A DNA stretch of 37,783 nt from a virus: the IMG/VR virus record IMGVR_UViG_3300020455_000003, positions 1-37,783 of that record. The stretch is one strand, 5' to 3'. Shown in pieces: positions 26,889-37,783 of the stretch. Both the position numbers and the translations under genes were made by a program. How positions within the stretch are numbered: position 1 is the stretch's first letter; every line of letters begins with the position of its first letter. The notes under the pieces were generated by a model, which worked only from the letters and a program-made list of their open reading frames with translations, searched no databases and was not told where the DNA came from.

Positions 26889-28295
26889 CTATGCAATGCC
26901 CTGGATGTTGCGTCGGAGCTCGCCGCGAAACCGATTAAACGCGCCTGACATGGCCGTCGCGCCTTCGCCGGAAAAAGTAAGCGCCAGGCTATCCGCGAGA
27001 TCCGGAGAATTAAATCCGCGTTTCTTTAAATCCTGTTTGCTTTCCGCTTTGATTTTACCAGAGCTGGTAAACGTATAACGCAACGAGGTCAGCTCCGACA
27101 AAAGCTGATTATTCTTCGGGATCTTACACGACCGGTTTTCTAACCAGGCTTTTGTCTTAAACCAAAGCTCGGCGCGTAAATTTAAATAGGTTTCCTTCAT
27201 GGACGGGCTCTCGCTCACGTTAATAGCGCGAACCGGCAAACCAAGCTCGGAAAGTCTGTCAAAACAACCGGCGCCCATCCCGACCGAATCGATCATGATT
27301 TCCAGGTGATCTTGCTCAAACGGCTCCAGGGCGTCGTACTCGGCTTTCACGCGGCCAACTGTTTGCATAAGATCTAAACCACCCCAGGAACGCAGCTCGG
27401 TCACTACGGAGCCTCTACGCTTGCATAAAGCGGTTTTGTCGCCGCCATACCTACTAACGTCCAGGGCCCACACCATAGGCGTCTCTGGACTTTCTTCGAT
27501 GTCTCGATGTTGCGCTGCCTCTACCAGGTGAAACGGAATTATCGTGTCGTCGTCGGCCAGTGGGAATTCACCCATTACGCGCACCATAAACGCGCTGGAA
27601 TTCTCGCCGTAGCGGTCGCGCATCTCATCGATAAACTCCGGAGCAACTAACGGGCTATCCTGGCAGCTCCAGCGCCTAGTCCACCAGCTTTTACGCATTC
27701 GGTTGTGGCTCTCAAAAAATGTGCCGCTGGAACGGGTAGGGTTCGACAACATCAAAACGGTTGCATTCGTTGACGATAAACTGCCGGCGCTGGCCTCAAA
27801 TACGACCTCCGGAACGCCTGATGCCTCATCAATGACCAAAAGCACATTGTCGGAGTGCACTCCTGCCAAGGCCTCTCCGGCATTCTCAGCTCTCGCCGTC
27901 CGGCAAGAGATAAACGCTTCAGCCGGTGCCGCTACAAGCTCCACACGATCAGATTTAACGTTAAGCAGCTCCTGGAGCTCCCTAGGCAATTCCCCTATCC
28001 ATCTTTTTAGCTCAGAAAACATCGCGTCGAATAGCTGCGAACTAGTGGGGGCCGTCACGACGACCTTGCAGGGAAATTTGAGCATCAAAAACCATAGCAT
28101 CGCCCAGCTCGCAGTCGTACTCTTGCCAGTTCCATGACCCGAGCGGACACTGAGGCGTCTAGTAGGGGAGGCAACCTCGCGCAAAAATTCCGCCTGGTAG
28201 TCAAAAGGCTCAACTCCAAGGATCTCCTGGACAAAGCGAACCGGATCGTTTTGATACGTCTCGACGAATTCTTCCATAAAATTTTTAGTCGTCAT
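26889..28295 (-). CDS. terL: Terminase large subunit, 468 aa
   Basis: ATP-driven motor that packages DNA and cuts concatemers. N-terminal ATPase: Walker A SGHGTGKST (52-60), Walker B VLLVIDEA (151-158). C-terminal RNase H-like nuclease: Asp279 in WALDVSRYGGDKTAL, Asp336 in IMIDSVGMGAG, and Asp432/Asp435 in SPDLADSLAL. Length is normal. It overlaps the small subunit by 11 bases. The mode of packaging (cos or pac) cannot be settled here. Confidence 0.93.
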   Translation of the reverse strand: MTTKNFMEEFVETYQNDPVRFVQEILGVEPFDYQAEFLREVASPTRRLSVRSGHGTGKSTTASWAMLWFLMLKFPCKVVVTAPTSSQLFDAMFSELKRWIGELPRELQELLNVKSDRVELVAAPAEAFISCRTARAENAGEALAGVHSDNVLLVIDEASGVPEVVFEASAGSLSSTNATVLMLSNPTRSSGTFFESHNRMRKSWWTRRWSCQDSPLVAPEFIDEMRDRYGENSSAFMVRVMGEFPLADDDTIIPFHLVEAAQHRDIEESPETPMVWALDVSRYGGDKTALCKRRGSVVTELRSWGGLDLMQTVGRVKAEYDALEPFEQDHLEIMIDSVGMGAGCFDRLSELGLPVRAINVSESPSMKETYLNLRAELWFKTKAWLENRSCKIPKNNQLLSELTSLRYTFTSSGKIKAESKQDLKKRGFNSPDLADSLALTFSGEGATAMSGAFNRFRGELRRNIQGIA

Positions 28296-29834: not shown

Positions 29835-30057
29835 TCTCTAGTTCCCACTTACGCTGCAAGATTGCCTGGCGCTGGAAATTATTCCAGCTCTTGAGATCCG
29901 ACATATTGAGATGACGCTTTCGATTAGCAATGGCTTCTAGATCCACCAGATCTGTCACTGCGTTGAGTAATCGAATGAAATCCTCTTCGCTCATTACAGC
30001 GTAATCCGGAGCTTTCCACTCTAACCTTTTGAGATCCTCCTCGGTCAGCATAACCAT
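29821..30057 (-). CDS. Hypothetical protein, 78 aa
   Basis: Charged helical protein (MLTEEDLKRLEWKAPDYAVM, EEDFIRLLNAVTDLVDLEAI). First gene after the iteron-like array; a second ATG two codons in is also possible. A TTGGTATGG iteron-like copy lies directly at the start, so expression may be controlled by the iteron-binding protein. Family not recognised. Confidence 0.6.
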   Translation of the reverse strand: MVMLTEEDLKRLEWKAPDYAVMSEEDFIRLLNAVTDLVDLEAIANRKRHLNMSDLKSWNNFQRQAILQRKWELENGRG

Positions 30058-30241
30058 ACCAACCCGAGCAACCCTACCATCATACCATTACCTAAAGGTA
30101 AATGGTATTGGTGGTATAGTTGGCGTTGCCGATACCAATTAGTATACCAACCGATACCAATTATACCAATTTGATATACTTTATGCATAACAATCAGGTA
30201 CTTAGACATCACACTGTTGCTGGTATCGGCTGGTATTCCGC
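30058..30241. repeat. Iteron-like array of ATACC/GGTAT repeats, candidate origin or operator
   Basis: About eleven ATACC or GGTAT copies in 184 bp. Four ATACCAA units lie at 30132-30138, 30144-30150, 30154-30160 and 30163-30169. An imperfect hairpin ATACCATTACCT/AGGTAAATGGTAT lies at about 30082-30107, and CTGGTATCGGCTGGTAT near 30222-30237. AT-rich, with no credible gene. It adjoins the primase/helicase. ATCAGGTACTTAGA near 30193-30206 is a partial 17-bp motif copy. Iterons beside a replication gene suggest an origin; a repressor site is the alternative. Confidence 0.65.
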
Positions 30242-32182
30242 TCATAATTTGTACTTTCCGGCGGTCAACCAGCAAAACCCGTCGTTGACGGCTATTTGCC
30301 CATCTTCAACAAGCTTATCAAACGGTCTGTTAAACGCTTGGCTTTTGTTTGTTGCGGTAGTTTTGCCCAGGAAATGCTTACGCAGATCTTCGACCTCTAT
30401 CATCCACCTGGTGCCGCCTTCTGGATATCCTGTTCCGCCTGGATTTATTTTGCCCACCTGATCGCCCTGCAATTGGGTAAAGCATTCGACCATTTTCTTT
30501 CCGCTTGGGCTCAGCTTTACCTTGGCTTCTTGCTTACGATCCTCAGTGACCGGCAGAACGTAGCAGCTCGTCACGTTATCGCCGTCCTCATCGTCGCCCA
30601 GGATAACTGTCTCCAGTTCAAAGGCGAACTCACGGCCTCCCTCGATCTCTCTTTGCTTCGTTGTCTTAGCAAAGCGAATGCCACTGACCTCATCGACGTT
30701 CACCTCTATCTCAGTGTCTGTCGCGGCTCTGAGGCTTGAATGGCCACGGCTGCCAGCATCATTACCAGCCTTTCCGGAGTGATGAACAAAAAGAATGCTG
30801 CAATTTCCATGAGATCTCAAAAAATCTCCCGAATTTATTATGGCCGTCATATCTTCTGGCCCGTTCTCGTTTCCGCCAACCATCGATCTACTAAGGGTAT
30901 CGACGCAAATTAATGCGATATCTCCGTAGAGCTCCTTGACCATATCTATTTGCGCCAGGAGCTTCGGCAGATCCGCTTCTGGATCCAGCAAGTTAACAGG
31001 GCAGGGACGTATTGCCAGCGGCACGTTCTCGTCGCCATAATGGTCCTGGATAGCGCGAGCTCGATTAAGATAACCGGATCCGCCCTCCGCTGCGTAATAT
31101 AATACGACGCCTTGCTTGACGTTGTGGCCGTGCCAGGTACGTCCAGCGGCGATGTGGTAGCTCATGTCGAGCGTAAAGAACGACTTGCCGGTATTTGACT
31201 GGCCGTAAACGACTGTCATCTGTTTAGCGCCGATCCAATTCTTTATCAGATAGTTTGACTGCAACACCGGCTGCGCGTCGCCGATCCACACCAGCTCGTC
31301 CAGGAGACTTTCCGGTCTGTTTAATGTCTTCAGCCCCGTAGCAACCGCCTGGAGCCCCTGGCTTGCATGCAAATCATTCCAGTCAGTGTCTGGCATGGCT
31401 GGCGCTGTCCAGGGTAAACCGGTGCTCTTGGCTGCGTCCTGGCCTTTTTGATTGGCATCATTATCGGCAGCTATGACCAGCTCCATGTCCGGCCAGGTTT
31501 CTTGCAGTGCCTGGCAAACGGTCGCCAGGTTACCGGCATCGAGTGCAAAAATTACGGGAGTTTTATCAGCTCCCGTAGACATGTGGACCGACACAGAAGT
31601 AGCCCAGCCCTCGCTGACGAAGCACTTGCCCGCGAAATCTAATTTACCGACGACGCCAAACACGCCCCCATCTTTTTTAAGTCCAGGATTAAACCGCTTG
31701 TCGCCTGACGGAGTGATGCGCTGGTGCCCGACCTGTTCTCTATTAGTATTGAACAATGGCACCACCACGTCAGAACCCTCAAGCACCGCGCCTACGAGGT
31801 CAACGCCTTTGCGTTCATGGTAAGGCGTATACGGGTCGAACTGCACTGGAGGCTCCTCCTGTTTGGGCATAGGCACTACATTTGCAAAGTAATCCTTGCC
31901 GGTTTGCTTTAGCTTGATTTCTGGTCGTTTCTTTTCGAGTAGCGGCCAACATCCGTCGTGCTCCAGGATCTCGACGATCGCCTGGAAGTCGTTGCATTGC
32001 CGACATTGAAATTTTACCAGGCCGTCACGTTCGTGGATCCAGAACCTGGTCGATGGCCAATCTTTATGTCCGCAATTTGGACAGGCGCCGTGATGCTCCC
32101 CTGGTGGACCTTCGCGAAGCGCGTATCTTTGAATGATACGGTCGCTCCACTCAGACCAGTATGCCTTTGGAAAGTCAGGCAT
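30242..32182 (-). CDS. DNA primase/helicase: zinc finger, Toprim, RepA-like ATPase, 646 aa
   Basis: Likely main replication enzyme. Zinc finger Cys34, Cys37, Cys60, Cys63 (CPNCG, CRQC). Toprim: CFVSEGWATSV with Glu191 and AADND (Asp240, Asp242). RecA-like ATPase: Walker A GQSNTGKS (327-334), Walker B ICVDTLSR with Asp428, and FVHHSGK (His467-468). This is the RepA/AAA_25 arrangement. The C-terminal 110 residues include a likely winged helix. No DNA polymerase gene was found, so host polymerase is probably recruited. Confidence 0.88.
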   Translation of the reverse strand: MPDFPKAYWSEWSDRIIQRYALREGPPGEHHGACPNCGHKDWPSTRFWIHERDGLVKFQCRQCNDFQAIVEILEHDGCWPLLEKKRPEIKLKQTGKDYFANVVPMPKQEEPPVQFDPYTPYHERKGVDLVGAVLEGSDVVVPLFNTNREQVGHQRITPSGDKRFNPGLKKDGGVFGVVGKLDFAGKCFVSEGWATSVSVHMSTGADKTPVIFALDAGNLATVCQALQETWPDMELVIAADNDANQKGQDAAKSTGLPWTAPAMPDTDWNDLHASQGLQAVATGLKTLNRPESLLDELVWIGDAQPVLQSNYLIKNWIGAKQMTVVYGQSNTGKSFFTLDMSYHIAAGRTWHGHNVKQGVVLYYAAEGGSGYLNRARAIQDHYGDENVPLAIRPCPVNLLDPEADLPKLLAQIDMVKELYGDIALICVDTLSRSMVGGNENGPEDMTAIINSGDFLRSHGNCSILFVHHSGKAGNDAGSRGHSSLRAATDTEIEVNVDEVSGIRFAKTTKQREIEGGREFAFELETVILGDDEDGDNVTSCYVLPVTEDRKQEAKVKLSPSGKKMVECFTQLQGDQVGKINPGGTGYPEGGTRWMIEVEDLRKHFLGKTTATNKSQAFNRPFDKLVEDGQIAVNDGFCWLTAGKYKL

Positions 32183-32993
32183 GAATGCCCAACTCTCTCT
32201 CGGTCCACCCAGTGACGCTTAAACCTTTGCCGTTTAACCTGGCGTTTGACATGCCAGTGCCCTGGATAAATTTTTCTAGGCCGGTGTTAAACAAACGCCG
32301 ACGAAAATCTATACCAACGCGCAGCTCATTGTGTTGATGCCTAATCAGATATTCCCTGACAAAAACCATCGCGTCGTTAGCGTATGTAGCCTGGCCAGAT
32401 TTCCAGACGTGCAATAGGTTTTCCGCTGTTGTTTCCGGATAGCCTAAGTGTTTAATAATGTAGTGACCGGCACCTATTGACGTATTCATTTTAGGAAAAA
32501 TTTTATTTGTTTTTTGAGCGCTTTCTACGATGCCTGGATGACGCGTTAAAATCTTATCCATTTCACTGTGCGTAAGTGACCTTATTTTGCTTTGACCAAA
32601 CGCCAGGTTAGCCAACACTTTCATGGTTGCGGCAACGCCAGTCGCGTGGGGCACGTTGTTCATGCCCAACCTGTCAGAGTAAGTCCTTTTCTTACCCGTA
32701 TCGATTGTGTGTACGACTTCCGGACTTAACCCTCGCACAACCACGGTCGTTAACGGTAGGCCAGCTTCTAATGCAGCCGTCAGCCTATGCTGGCCATTAA
32801 GTAATTTCCCATTAAGGTCGATGCTAATGGCTTCTCCGTTTACCTCCCATTTGCCATGCACAATATCGCGTTTGTACTCCTCAACTTTGCGGCGACTTAA
32901 TTTTCTGTTGTTTGTATTCCACTGCAACAACTGCCGACATTGTTCCGGCTCTAATGTTTCAGTGTTAACAATTATTGCATTACCTCTTTCCAT
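32175..32993 (-). CDS. ParB-like / sulfiredoxin-fold protein, 272 aa
   Basis: NTNNRKLSRRKVEEYKRDIV, EAISIDLNGKLLNGQHRLTAAL and TTVVVRGLSPEVVHTIDTGK match the ParB/Srx-fold proteins common in phages; GQHR (67-70) is the core. Members can be nucleases or DNA-binding proteins; activity here is unproven. The C-terminal half is helical. Overlaps the primase/helicase start by eight bases. Confidence 0.75.
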   Translation of the reverse strand: MERGNAIIVNTETLEPEQCRQLLQWNTNNRKLSRRKVEEYKRDIVHGKWEVNGEAISIDLNGKLLNGQHRLTAALEAGLPLTTVVVRGLSPEVVHTIDTGKKRTYSDRLGMNNVPHATGVAATMKVLANLAFGQSKIRSLTHSEMDKILTRHPGIVESAQKTNKIFPKMNTSIGAGHYIIKHLGYPETTAENLLHVWKSGQATYANDAMVFVREYLIRHQHNELRVGIDFRRRLFNTGLEKFIQGTGMSNARLNGKGLSVTGWTERELGIHA

Positions 32994-37317: not shown

Positions 37318-37783
37318 AGGTCGGTGCGTTTATCGTTGGCGGTGACAAAGAAAGTCAGACCGCCCAGCGCGTGGCTATCACGGAGCATTTTCTGAGCACC
37401 GCCGCATCGATTGCTCTTTTTCCTGAGAAGCCAGGCAACGAAAAATATGACGCCGAGGATCGGGTCATGCTGATGAAGGCCGCCAGGTTTTGCCGGAAGC
37501 ACCAGGCGACTTTTGCCGTCGCCAGTTTGTCGGGCATGTTCGACACACGTTGGAAGGCGCTAGGTTGGCTCGCGTATCAGGCTGAACAATACGGGATAGA
37601 CATTGTCGTGACCGACGAGCCGCAAGTTAATAGCAGCTCCGTGGGCATACTGAGCGTTCACGCTGACGAGCAGCGCAAAAGATTGGCCGCCAAGTCTAAG
37701 GCTGCCCTGGATGAGATTAAGTCGATGCTGAAGCAGGGGAAGCCCGTCAGGACAAAAACGGGCAGGGTGATCAACAAGGTTAA
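37314..37783 (+). CDS. Serine-recombinase-like protein, catalytically degenerate, N-terminal part
   Basis: Continues at base 1 across the circle; full length is 246 residues. The resolvase fold is readable: KVGAFIVGGDKESQTAQRVA in place of YxRVSTxxQ, ASLSGMFDTRWKALGWL in place of RLDRLSRD, then DEPQVNSSSVGILSVHADEQRKRLAAKSKAAL. The catalytic serine is replaced by Gly9 or Gly10, the nearby arginine by isoleucine, and the RLSR arginines are missing. It probably cannot cut DNA and acts as a DNA-binding protein. ATGA overlap with the upstream gene. Confidence 0.8.
   Translation, partial: MKVGAFIVGGDKESQTAQRVAITEHFLSTAASIALFPEKPGNEKYDAEDRVMLMKAARFCRKHQATFAVASLSGMFDTRWKALGWLAYQAEQYGIDIVVTDEPQVNSSSVGILSVHADEQRKRLAAKSKAALDEIKSMLKQGKPVRTKTGRVINKV
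37707..37783. repeat. Terminal direct repeat (circle overlap), right copy
   Basis: Identical to bases 1-77; see the left copy. It lies inside the recombinase-like gene, 131 codons from its start, in the same reading phase. Confidence 0.9.

Follow-up and report, generated by a model that had tools for sequence, protein, structure and literature searches.

A repeat array directly downstream of a primase-helicase gene

We analysed a 37,783-base virus record (IMG/VR record IMGVR_UViG_3300020455_000003; hereafter the window) with a focus on a 184-bp gap (30058–30241) between the stop codon of a primase-helicase gene (30242–30244) and the start codon of the next gene (30055–30057), both on the minus strand. 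The gap holds an array of short ATACC/GGTAT units that the initial annotation of the window had read as iterons and as a candidate replication origin. About eleven units in non-coding DNA had been counted; ten are exact (at 30056, 30082, 30104, 30113, 30132, 30144, 30154, 30163, 30222 and 30232), the one at 30056 sharing two bases with the next start codon, and the eleventh is imperfect (CTACC at 30074). Outside the array the pentamer occurs 56 times, or 0.27 times per 184 bp, so that ten in one stretch have a Poisson probability of ~5e-13; the next-densest separate stretch of the array's size contains at most three. One minus-strand frame happens to stay open across the array in the window, but none is kept open among relatives (all frames contain stops in L015, L025, L035, L046, L060, L062 and L066). 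A coding explanation of the gap was therefore rejected, and the region is taken as non-coding.

On the helicase strand, the array begins 5 nt beyond the helicase stop codon and opens with a pair of inverted units and a spacer; four direct TTGGTAT units and another inverted pair follow, then a hairpin, a direct pair with one imperfect member, and a final direct unit:

30056–30241, minus strand, read 5' to 3' along the helicase operon: the whole iteron array, a candidate replication origin, with ten exact units; place and layout kept in relatives
30222–30236, minus strand: A units, two inverted (ATACCAGCCGATACC), 5–20 nt past the helicase stop
30168–30221, minus strand: A+T-rich spacer of 54 bp, ~69% A+T by direct count, a candidate unwinding element
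30132–30167, minus strand: B units, four direct TTGGTAT, spacing 9, 10 and 12 bp
30104–30117, minus strand: C units, two inverted (ATACCACCAATACC)
30088–30101, minus strand: central hairpin TTACC-TTTA-GGTAA; loop kept and stem covarying among relatives
30074–30086, minus strand: D units, GGTAT and imperfect GGTAG, which pair with the C units around the hairpin
30056–30060, minus strand: E unit, the final direct GGTAT, running into the next start codon

The B units are the four ATACCAA units described initially as 9–12 bp apart (30132, 30144, 30154 and 30163, spaced 12, 10 and 9 bp). The surrounding kilobases are ~50–53% A+T, compared with ~69% in the spacer. The window thus has several of the marks of an iteron origin: repeats at helical-turn-like spacing, in non-coding DNA, beside the gene of a proposed initiator and with an A+T-rich neighbour. 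A large imperfect hairpin had also been noticed; the single-stranded fold of the array region is far stronger than expected (−31.2 kcal/mol versus a shuffle mean of −18.6; z −4.15; none of 200 shuffles as strong). No Rfam match was found at E up to 1 within 29900–30400, and a promoter and terminator scan gave counts like those of shuffles.

The array in related phages and probable prophages

A blastn search of the phage collection, even in distant mode, found no related DNA, and relatives therefore had to be found by protein search. The protein search of IMG/VR gave 78 viral helicase relatives, to which additional viral scans seeded with other clades added almost no new loci. In nearly all viral relatives whose sequence extends past the helicase, an array lies directly 3' of it, and an automatic motif finder recovered the orientation string --++++--++ in clade after clade. 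Conservation in related phages, suggested at the outset as a check, therefore extends to both place and layout.

The unit itself is replaced in every copy of an array at once, and at least 15 versions occur among these related marine phages: TTGGTAT, TTGGTACG, TTGTTACG, AACATACGC, TTTCCTCCG, TTTCCTACG with TTTCCGACA, TTTCATACA, TTTCTACA, TTTAGGACA, TTTGTAGT, TTTACAC, TTTATACA, TTTCACAT, TTTCCTAT and GCGTCG, among others. More distant relatives, found in bacterial genomes (mostly of Rhodobacterales) and probably prophages, often carry similar arrays, with units such as CCGGACA, CGGGACA, CTTCCGC, GCGTTAC, CCGTACA and ACGGGAA in 5–12 copies within tens of bases of the helicase stop. Counted by the strict criterion of exact 7-mers in at least five copies, an array is present in 26 of 56 bacterial relatives with a C-terminal tail of at least 60 residues and in none of seven with a shorter tail (Fisher p 0.035).

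The central hairpin was compared in 20 distinct versions. Its 5-bp stem is paired in 91% of cells and shows 25 double changes; choosing the hairpins by eye biases this figure towards pairing, but slid controls drop to 15–46%. The covariation score is 0.598 versus 0.167 in shuffles (0 of 500 as high), and the loop stays near TTTA or TATA. Because the stem covaries while the loop is kept, the hairpin likely matters as a single strand or cruciform; by analogy, one possibility is a priming site like those of IncQ plasmids.

The strong single-strand fold, the inverted copies of every unit and the compensatory changes in the hairpin could also mean that the whole array acts as folded RNA or single-stranded DNA (a priming signal, an attenuator or a regulatory RNA), with units covarying only through the pairing of inverted with direct copies. 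L028, which has two unit types each in both orientations, fits such an explanation. Pairing alone, however, requires neither that one unit sequence be shared throughout an array nor that the unit track the recognition helix of the helicase (see below); the edge units of L012, L015 and L023 mismatch the inner ones, and Rfam gave no match. We therefore regard a purely folded-strand function as very unlikely, although the central hairpin may act on single strands inside an origin.

Several arrays have unusual compositions. L033 has two tandem arrays at 1300–1560 with related units (of TTTCCGAC type, then of TTTCCTACG/TTTCCGACA type), as if caught after recombination between arrays. Downstream of the helicase in L028 and L029, TTTCCTACG occupies the first half of the array and TTTCCGACA the second, each with matching inverted copies. 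In L023, L035, L038, L046, L060 and L081, the spacer between the A and B units keeps a TCAATGG(G/C)TTA-like block (TCAATGGGTTA-like) despite quite different units; this block, perhaps a host-factor or unwinding site, was not seen in the window's clade. Elsewhere in the relatives' genomes, the unit TTGGTATCGG gave scattered single near-matches, about as many as a reversed control.

Covariation of the unit with the helicase winged helix

The helicase encoded next to the array comprises the following elements:

30242–32182, minus strand: primase-helicase, with Toprim_3, a RecA-type AAA_25 domain (RepA/T7 gp4-like) and a predicted C-terminal winged helix (Pfam and PHROGs)
30245–30517, minus strand: C-terminal winged-helix domain, residues 556–646, proposed to bind the origin (AlphaFold2 models of the full-length protein and of the isolated domain)
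30305–30346, minus strand: recognition helix, residues 613–626, which with the preceding turn (609–612) is the main focus of unit-linked substitutions

Pfam detected AAA_25 (PF13481, E 1.1e-34) and Toprim_3 only, and the best Foldseek matches of the helicase model are T7 gp4 and RSF1010 RepA (1nlf, 1olo, 1g8y). A RepA-like RecA-fold helicase domain (superfamily 4) is thus present by Pfam and by structure, tests that address the fold. A superfamily 3 helicase domain, the family mark of the P4 alpha protein, is absent from the Pfam hits and from the best Foldseek matches. The winged-helix models have a predicted local distance difference test (pLDDT) score of mostly ~87–97, except in the N-terminal tail of the domain model, and follow the order H1-beta-H2-H3-wing (helix 559–573, strand 593–596, helix 597–607, recognition helix 613–626, wing 630–639). 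With the domain as query, VIA-align 2 returned many winged helices, the best (Z 8.9) being an ORC winged helix, a level common for the fold, with none clearly closest; the P4 origin-binding domain is not among the matches listed, which excludes nothing. A Foldseek search with the domain alone gave no match below E 0.001, and a profile search of Protein Data Bank sequences yielded nothing but a weak hit on histone H1 (E 0.85) and a spurious one on a lactonase.

The N-terminal half of the protein differs by clade, being Toprim in the window's clade and without a Toprim or other Pfam match in the clades around L035, L046, L062, L038, L041 and L055. With N-terminal halves of different kinds joined to one type of RepA-like motor and winged helix, both the primase side and the DNA-reading side seem exchangeable around a conserved motor.

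Unit and winged helix change together. In 199 close pairs, unit difference correlates with winged-helix distance when AAA distance is held constant (partial r 0.52, with unit classes assigned by hand and with sequences and distances that are not independent); when labels were permuted within clades, none of 2000 shuffles reached this value, the highest being 0.465. Nineteen of the 30 best unit-linked columns are among the 52 of residues 592–646, and the strongest include 615, 618, 612, 610, 619, 609, 611 and 614, which belong to the recognition helix or the turn before it. Pairs with AAA identity of at least 0.98 and different units have winged helices only 73–84% identical.

Individual pairs follow the same pattern. 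L066 and L069, with units TTTGTAGT and TTTAGGACA, are 89% identical in the AAA domain and 38% in the winged helix. L012 and L013 share 99% of the AAA domain, with units TTGGTAT-like versus TTGGTACG and S614 to R among the changes. Between L013 and L015 the unit changes from GGTACG to GTTACG, with A610T and S611N among the substitutions; between L025 and L028 it changes from TTTCCTCCG to TTTCC(T/G)AC, with G615S and R618G among others; and between L038 and L073 it changes from TTTGTAGT to TTTATACA as SNPDSAY becomes SNPRSSY. On the AAA tree, phages with TTTAGGACA need three changes and those with TTTGTAGT five; on the winged-helix tree, in which many forks are open owing to the short domain, they need one and two.

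Five cultured Roseobacter phages (CRP-811, CRP-821, CRP-822, CRP-823 and CRP-831) have the same winged-helix domain, CRP-811 being included in the tree and the other four standing outside the statistics. CRP-811 and CRP-823 combine SNPDSAY with TTTGTAGT, the pair found in L038, and CRP-821, CRP-822 and CRP-831 combine SNPRSSY with TTTATACA, the pair found in L073. CRP-821, CRP-822 and CRP-823 share one host strain (CRP-822 and CRP-823 grow on Roseobacter FZCC0197), so that two candidate origin types coexist on one host. In a word search, the paper on cultured roseophages (PMC12629253) mentioned neither an origin of replication nor an iteron.

Winged helix and array adjoin, and mosaic exchange is common in phages, so the two might change together by linkage alone, as a short cassette swapped by recombination with no physical match between its parts. 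The DNA of L012 and L013 argues against simple linkage: it diverges at the recognition helix and again at the array, two blocks split by one of ~90% identity and flanked by conserved DNA. No other gene lies between recognition helix and array. Control pairs with the same unit show no dip in identity at either place; the mosaic is less clean in L013/L015 and L025/L028. Since, in addition, the changes focus on recognition-helix residues and all units of an array change in concert, we consider linkage alone highly improbable. The focus of the covariation on the recognition helix suggests that the array units are read by the C-terminal winged helix of the helicase.

A candidate origin proposed to be read by the helicase itself

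From the conserved layout, the covariation and the structural models, we consider it likely that the array is an iteron-type replication origin bound by the C-terminal winged helix of the adjoining primase-helicase. The iteron and candidate-origin reading of the initial annotation thus gains from the conserved place and layout and from a unit that covaries with the winged helix. The annotation had also placed the iterons next to a RepA-type helicase; this adjacency stands, with the helicase as the specific partner in place of a separate RepC-like initiator or of the small regulators. From sequence comparison we propose that the protein binds the array, that the strands open and the helicase loads there, that the array is active as an origin, and that the hairpin has a role in it. 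Contact with the units would be made by the winged helix of the primase-helicase, whose recognition helix would read the variable bases and whose wing would probably lie on the neighbouring T-tract. With several subunits on the paired units to either side of the A+T-rich spacer, the duplex would open at the spacer and two helicase rings would load; the attached primase would then make the first primers. On single-stranded DNA, the small covarying hairpin may be where priming or loading takes place. As the recognition helix would have to fit the unit, the two would change as a pair, giving rise to many origin types.

Several observations weigh against this interpretation, in addition to the limits of the pairwise comparison given above. 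The recognition helix and the array lie within ~350 bp of each other, a distance at which linkage by itself would lead to some joint inheritance. Among the distant bacterial relatives that have a tail, about half lack an array by the exact 7-mer criterion, and in L232 the helicase has a winged helix without being followed by an array. The array of L021, downstream of 1454, is down to two inverted units and one direct unit (a collapse that is either a real deletion or an assembly effect), and those of L012, L015 and L023 retain old units at their edges. Cumulative GC skew, put forward initially as a check on the origin, gives no support: it tracks the direction of the genes and shows no switch around 30 kb or at the array.

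Iteron initiators often also regulate themselves, and the array sits in an operon gap with a promoter-like site (9 of 12 matches) overlapping the B units; it could therefore be an operator through which the winged helix or a small regulator controls the helicase operon or the downstream genes, with no origin present. One such site is, however, what shuffles produce (mean 1.1), and the array, lying on the 3' side of the helicase gene, is not where that gene's own promoter would be. At least eight units in a fixed multi-part layout, an A+T-rich spacer and a covarying hairpin exceed what an ordinary operator needs, and the covariation points to the domain of the helicase. An operator without origin function is, in our judgement, unlikely.

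Initiators that combine several of these roles provide the closest comparisons for a helicase that reads its own origin. The oriV of RSF1010 (IncQ) has a hexameric RepA-type motor, iterons and hairpin priming sites. A RepA-like motor, iterons and a hairpin recur here, whereas in RSF1010 iteron binding (RepC), helicase (RepA) and primase (RepB') are separate proteins and here one protein seems to hold all three roles. The P4 alpha protein contains a superfamily 3 helicase and acts on other unit sequences at two separated sites (ori and crr). It resembles the protein described here in uniting a Toprim primase, a helicase and a C-terminal winged-helix origin-binding domain that acts on short repeated targets, and differs in its helicase, which is RepA/T7 gp4-like here; the likeness drawn here is one of domain plan. 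P4 alpha and its iterons were described by Yeo et al. (2002) and Ziegelin and Lanka (1995), as related in PMC4234260. The pRN1 protein ORF904, which has been compared with P4 alpha, ends in a winged helix and depends on a stem-loop immediately 3' of the gene that encodes it (PMC4234260). It is likewise a primase-helicase with a winged helix and an essential origin 3' of its gene, kept in structure and variable in sequence, but it has no iterons, a primase of archaeo-eukaryotic type and a superfamily 3 helicase.

The Rep helicases of staphylococcal pathogenicity islands (SaPI) bind iterons just downstream of their own genes through a C-terminal domain (Ubeda et al., 2007, as related in PMC7581432), their origins are specific to the cognate Rep, and SCCmec Cch2 behaves like SaPI Rep in vitro (PMC7581432). 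An initiator helicase with a C-terminal DNA-binding domain and short iterons directly downstream of its gene is thus common to SaPI and, as proposed here, the window. The helicases of SaPI Rep and Cch2 are of DUF927 or D5/Primase_Cterm type, whereas the one here has the RecA-fold AAA_25; in addition, a Toprim primase is fused to it in the window's clade, and it belongs to tailed phages rather than satellites. In RepA of the Vibrio PLE satellite, the DNA-binding domain and the origin repeats also change together (PMC8263062). Geminivirus Rep presents a repeat pattern that is kept while its sequence varies (PMC12548392), although Rep is a rolling-circle enzyme on small single-stranded genomes.

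The window shares with these all-in-one initiators a C-terminal winged helix, predicted with high confidence, on a helicase that adjoins repeats; it differs from the known cases in its motor, which is AAA_25/RepA/T7 gp4-like. To our knowledge, helicases of RepA/DnaB/T7 gp4 type rely on other proteins to find the origin, and the literature searched here showed no described exception. We give even chances to a broader proposal: that in a widespread group of tailed phages a superfamily 4 (RepA/T7 gp4-type) helicase is its own origin-recognition protein, loading itself at iterons, and that joint exchange or rewriting of unit and recognition helix is so frequent that origin types are incompatible between close relatives, even on one host strain, perhaps as an escape from origin-directed nucleases, satellites or co-infecting relatives.

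If the helicase does read its own origin, these phages could start replication with very few components, and their numerous matched units and recognition helices would offer a natural collection from which to learn how winged helices select DNA. With CRP-822 and CRP-823 bringing two types to a single host strain, the question can be tested directly. Rapid exchange also raises the question of what drives origin types apart. By analogy, candidate drivers are origin-directed nucleases, one of which is thought to impose pressure on origin type in Vibrio (PMC8263062), competition with transcription factors, as proposed for geminiviruses (PMC12548392), and exclusion between co-infecting relatives.

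The wider window has the gene set of a tailed phage (portal, large terminase, head and tail genes). An exact 77-bp direct terminal repeat (1–77 and 37707–37783) indicates that it assembles as a circle of ~37.7 kb, or has short terminal redundancy. The helicase belongs to a leftward replication block with a RuvC-like resolvase, an exonuclease, a single-strand binding protein and a 272-residue protein; the gene after the gap, with its start at 30057, encodes 78 residues. One further gene of the block adjoins the helicase:

32175–32993: gene of the 272-residue protein upstream of the helicase (PHROG 5931)

A packaging site at the array was considered and set aside, the terminase gene being more than 1.5 kb away (26889–28295) and the array tracking the helicase. 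The initial annotation had also linked the array core to a dispersed 17-bp motif. The motif exists, but it has only GTATC/GGTAC-like letters in common with the unit (TTGGTATC), and it was set aside as the same site, the core being different and with no sign of identity. The motif, GTATCTGGTACTTTTAA, occurs at six plus-strand sites (1326, 1347, 5801, 8100, 14872 and 35430) at up to three mismatches, versus 0.16 expected; the sites are mostly intergenic or near gene ends, and may be a phage promoter or operator.
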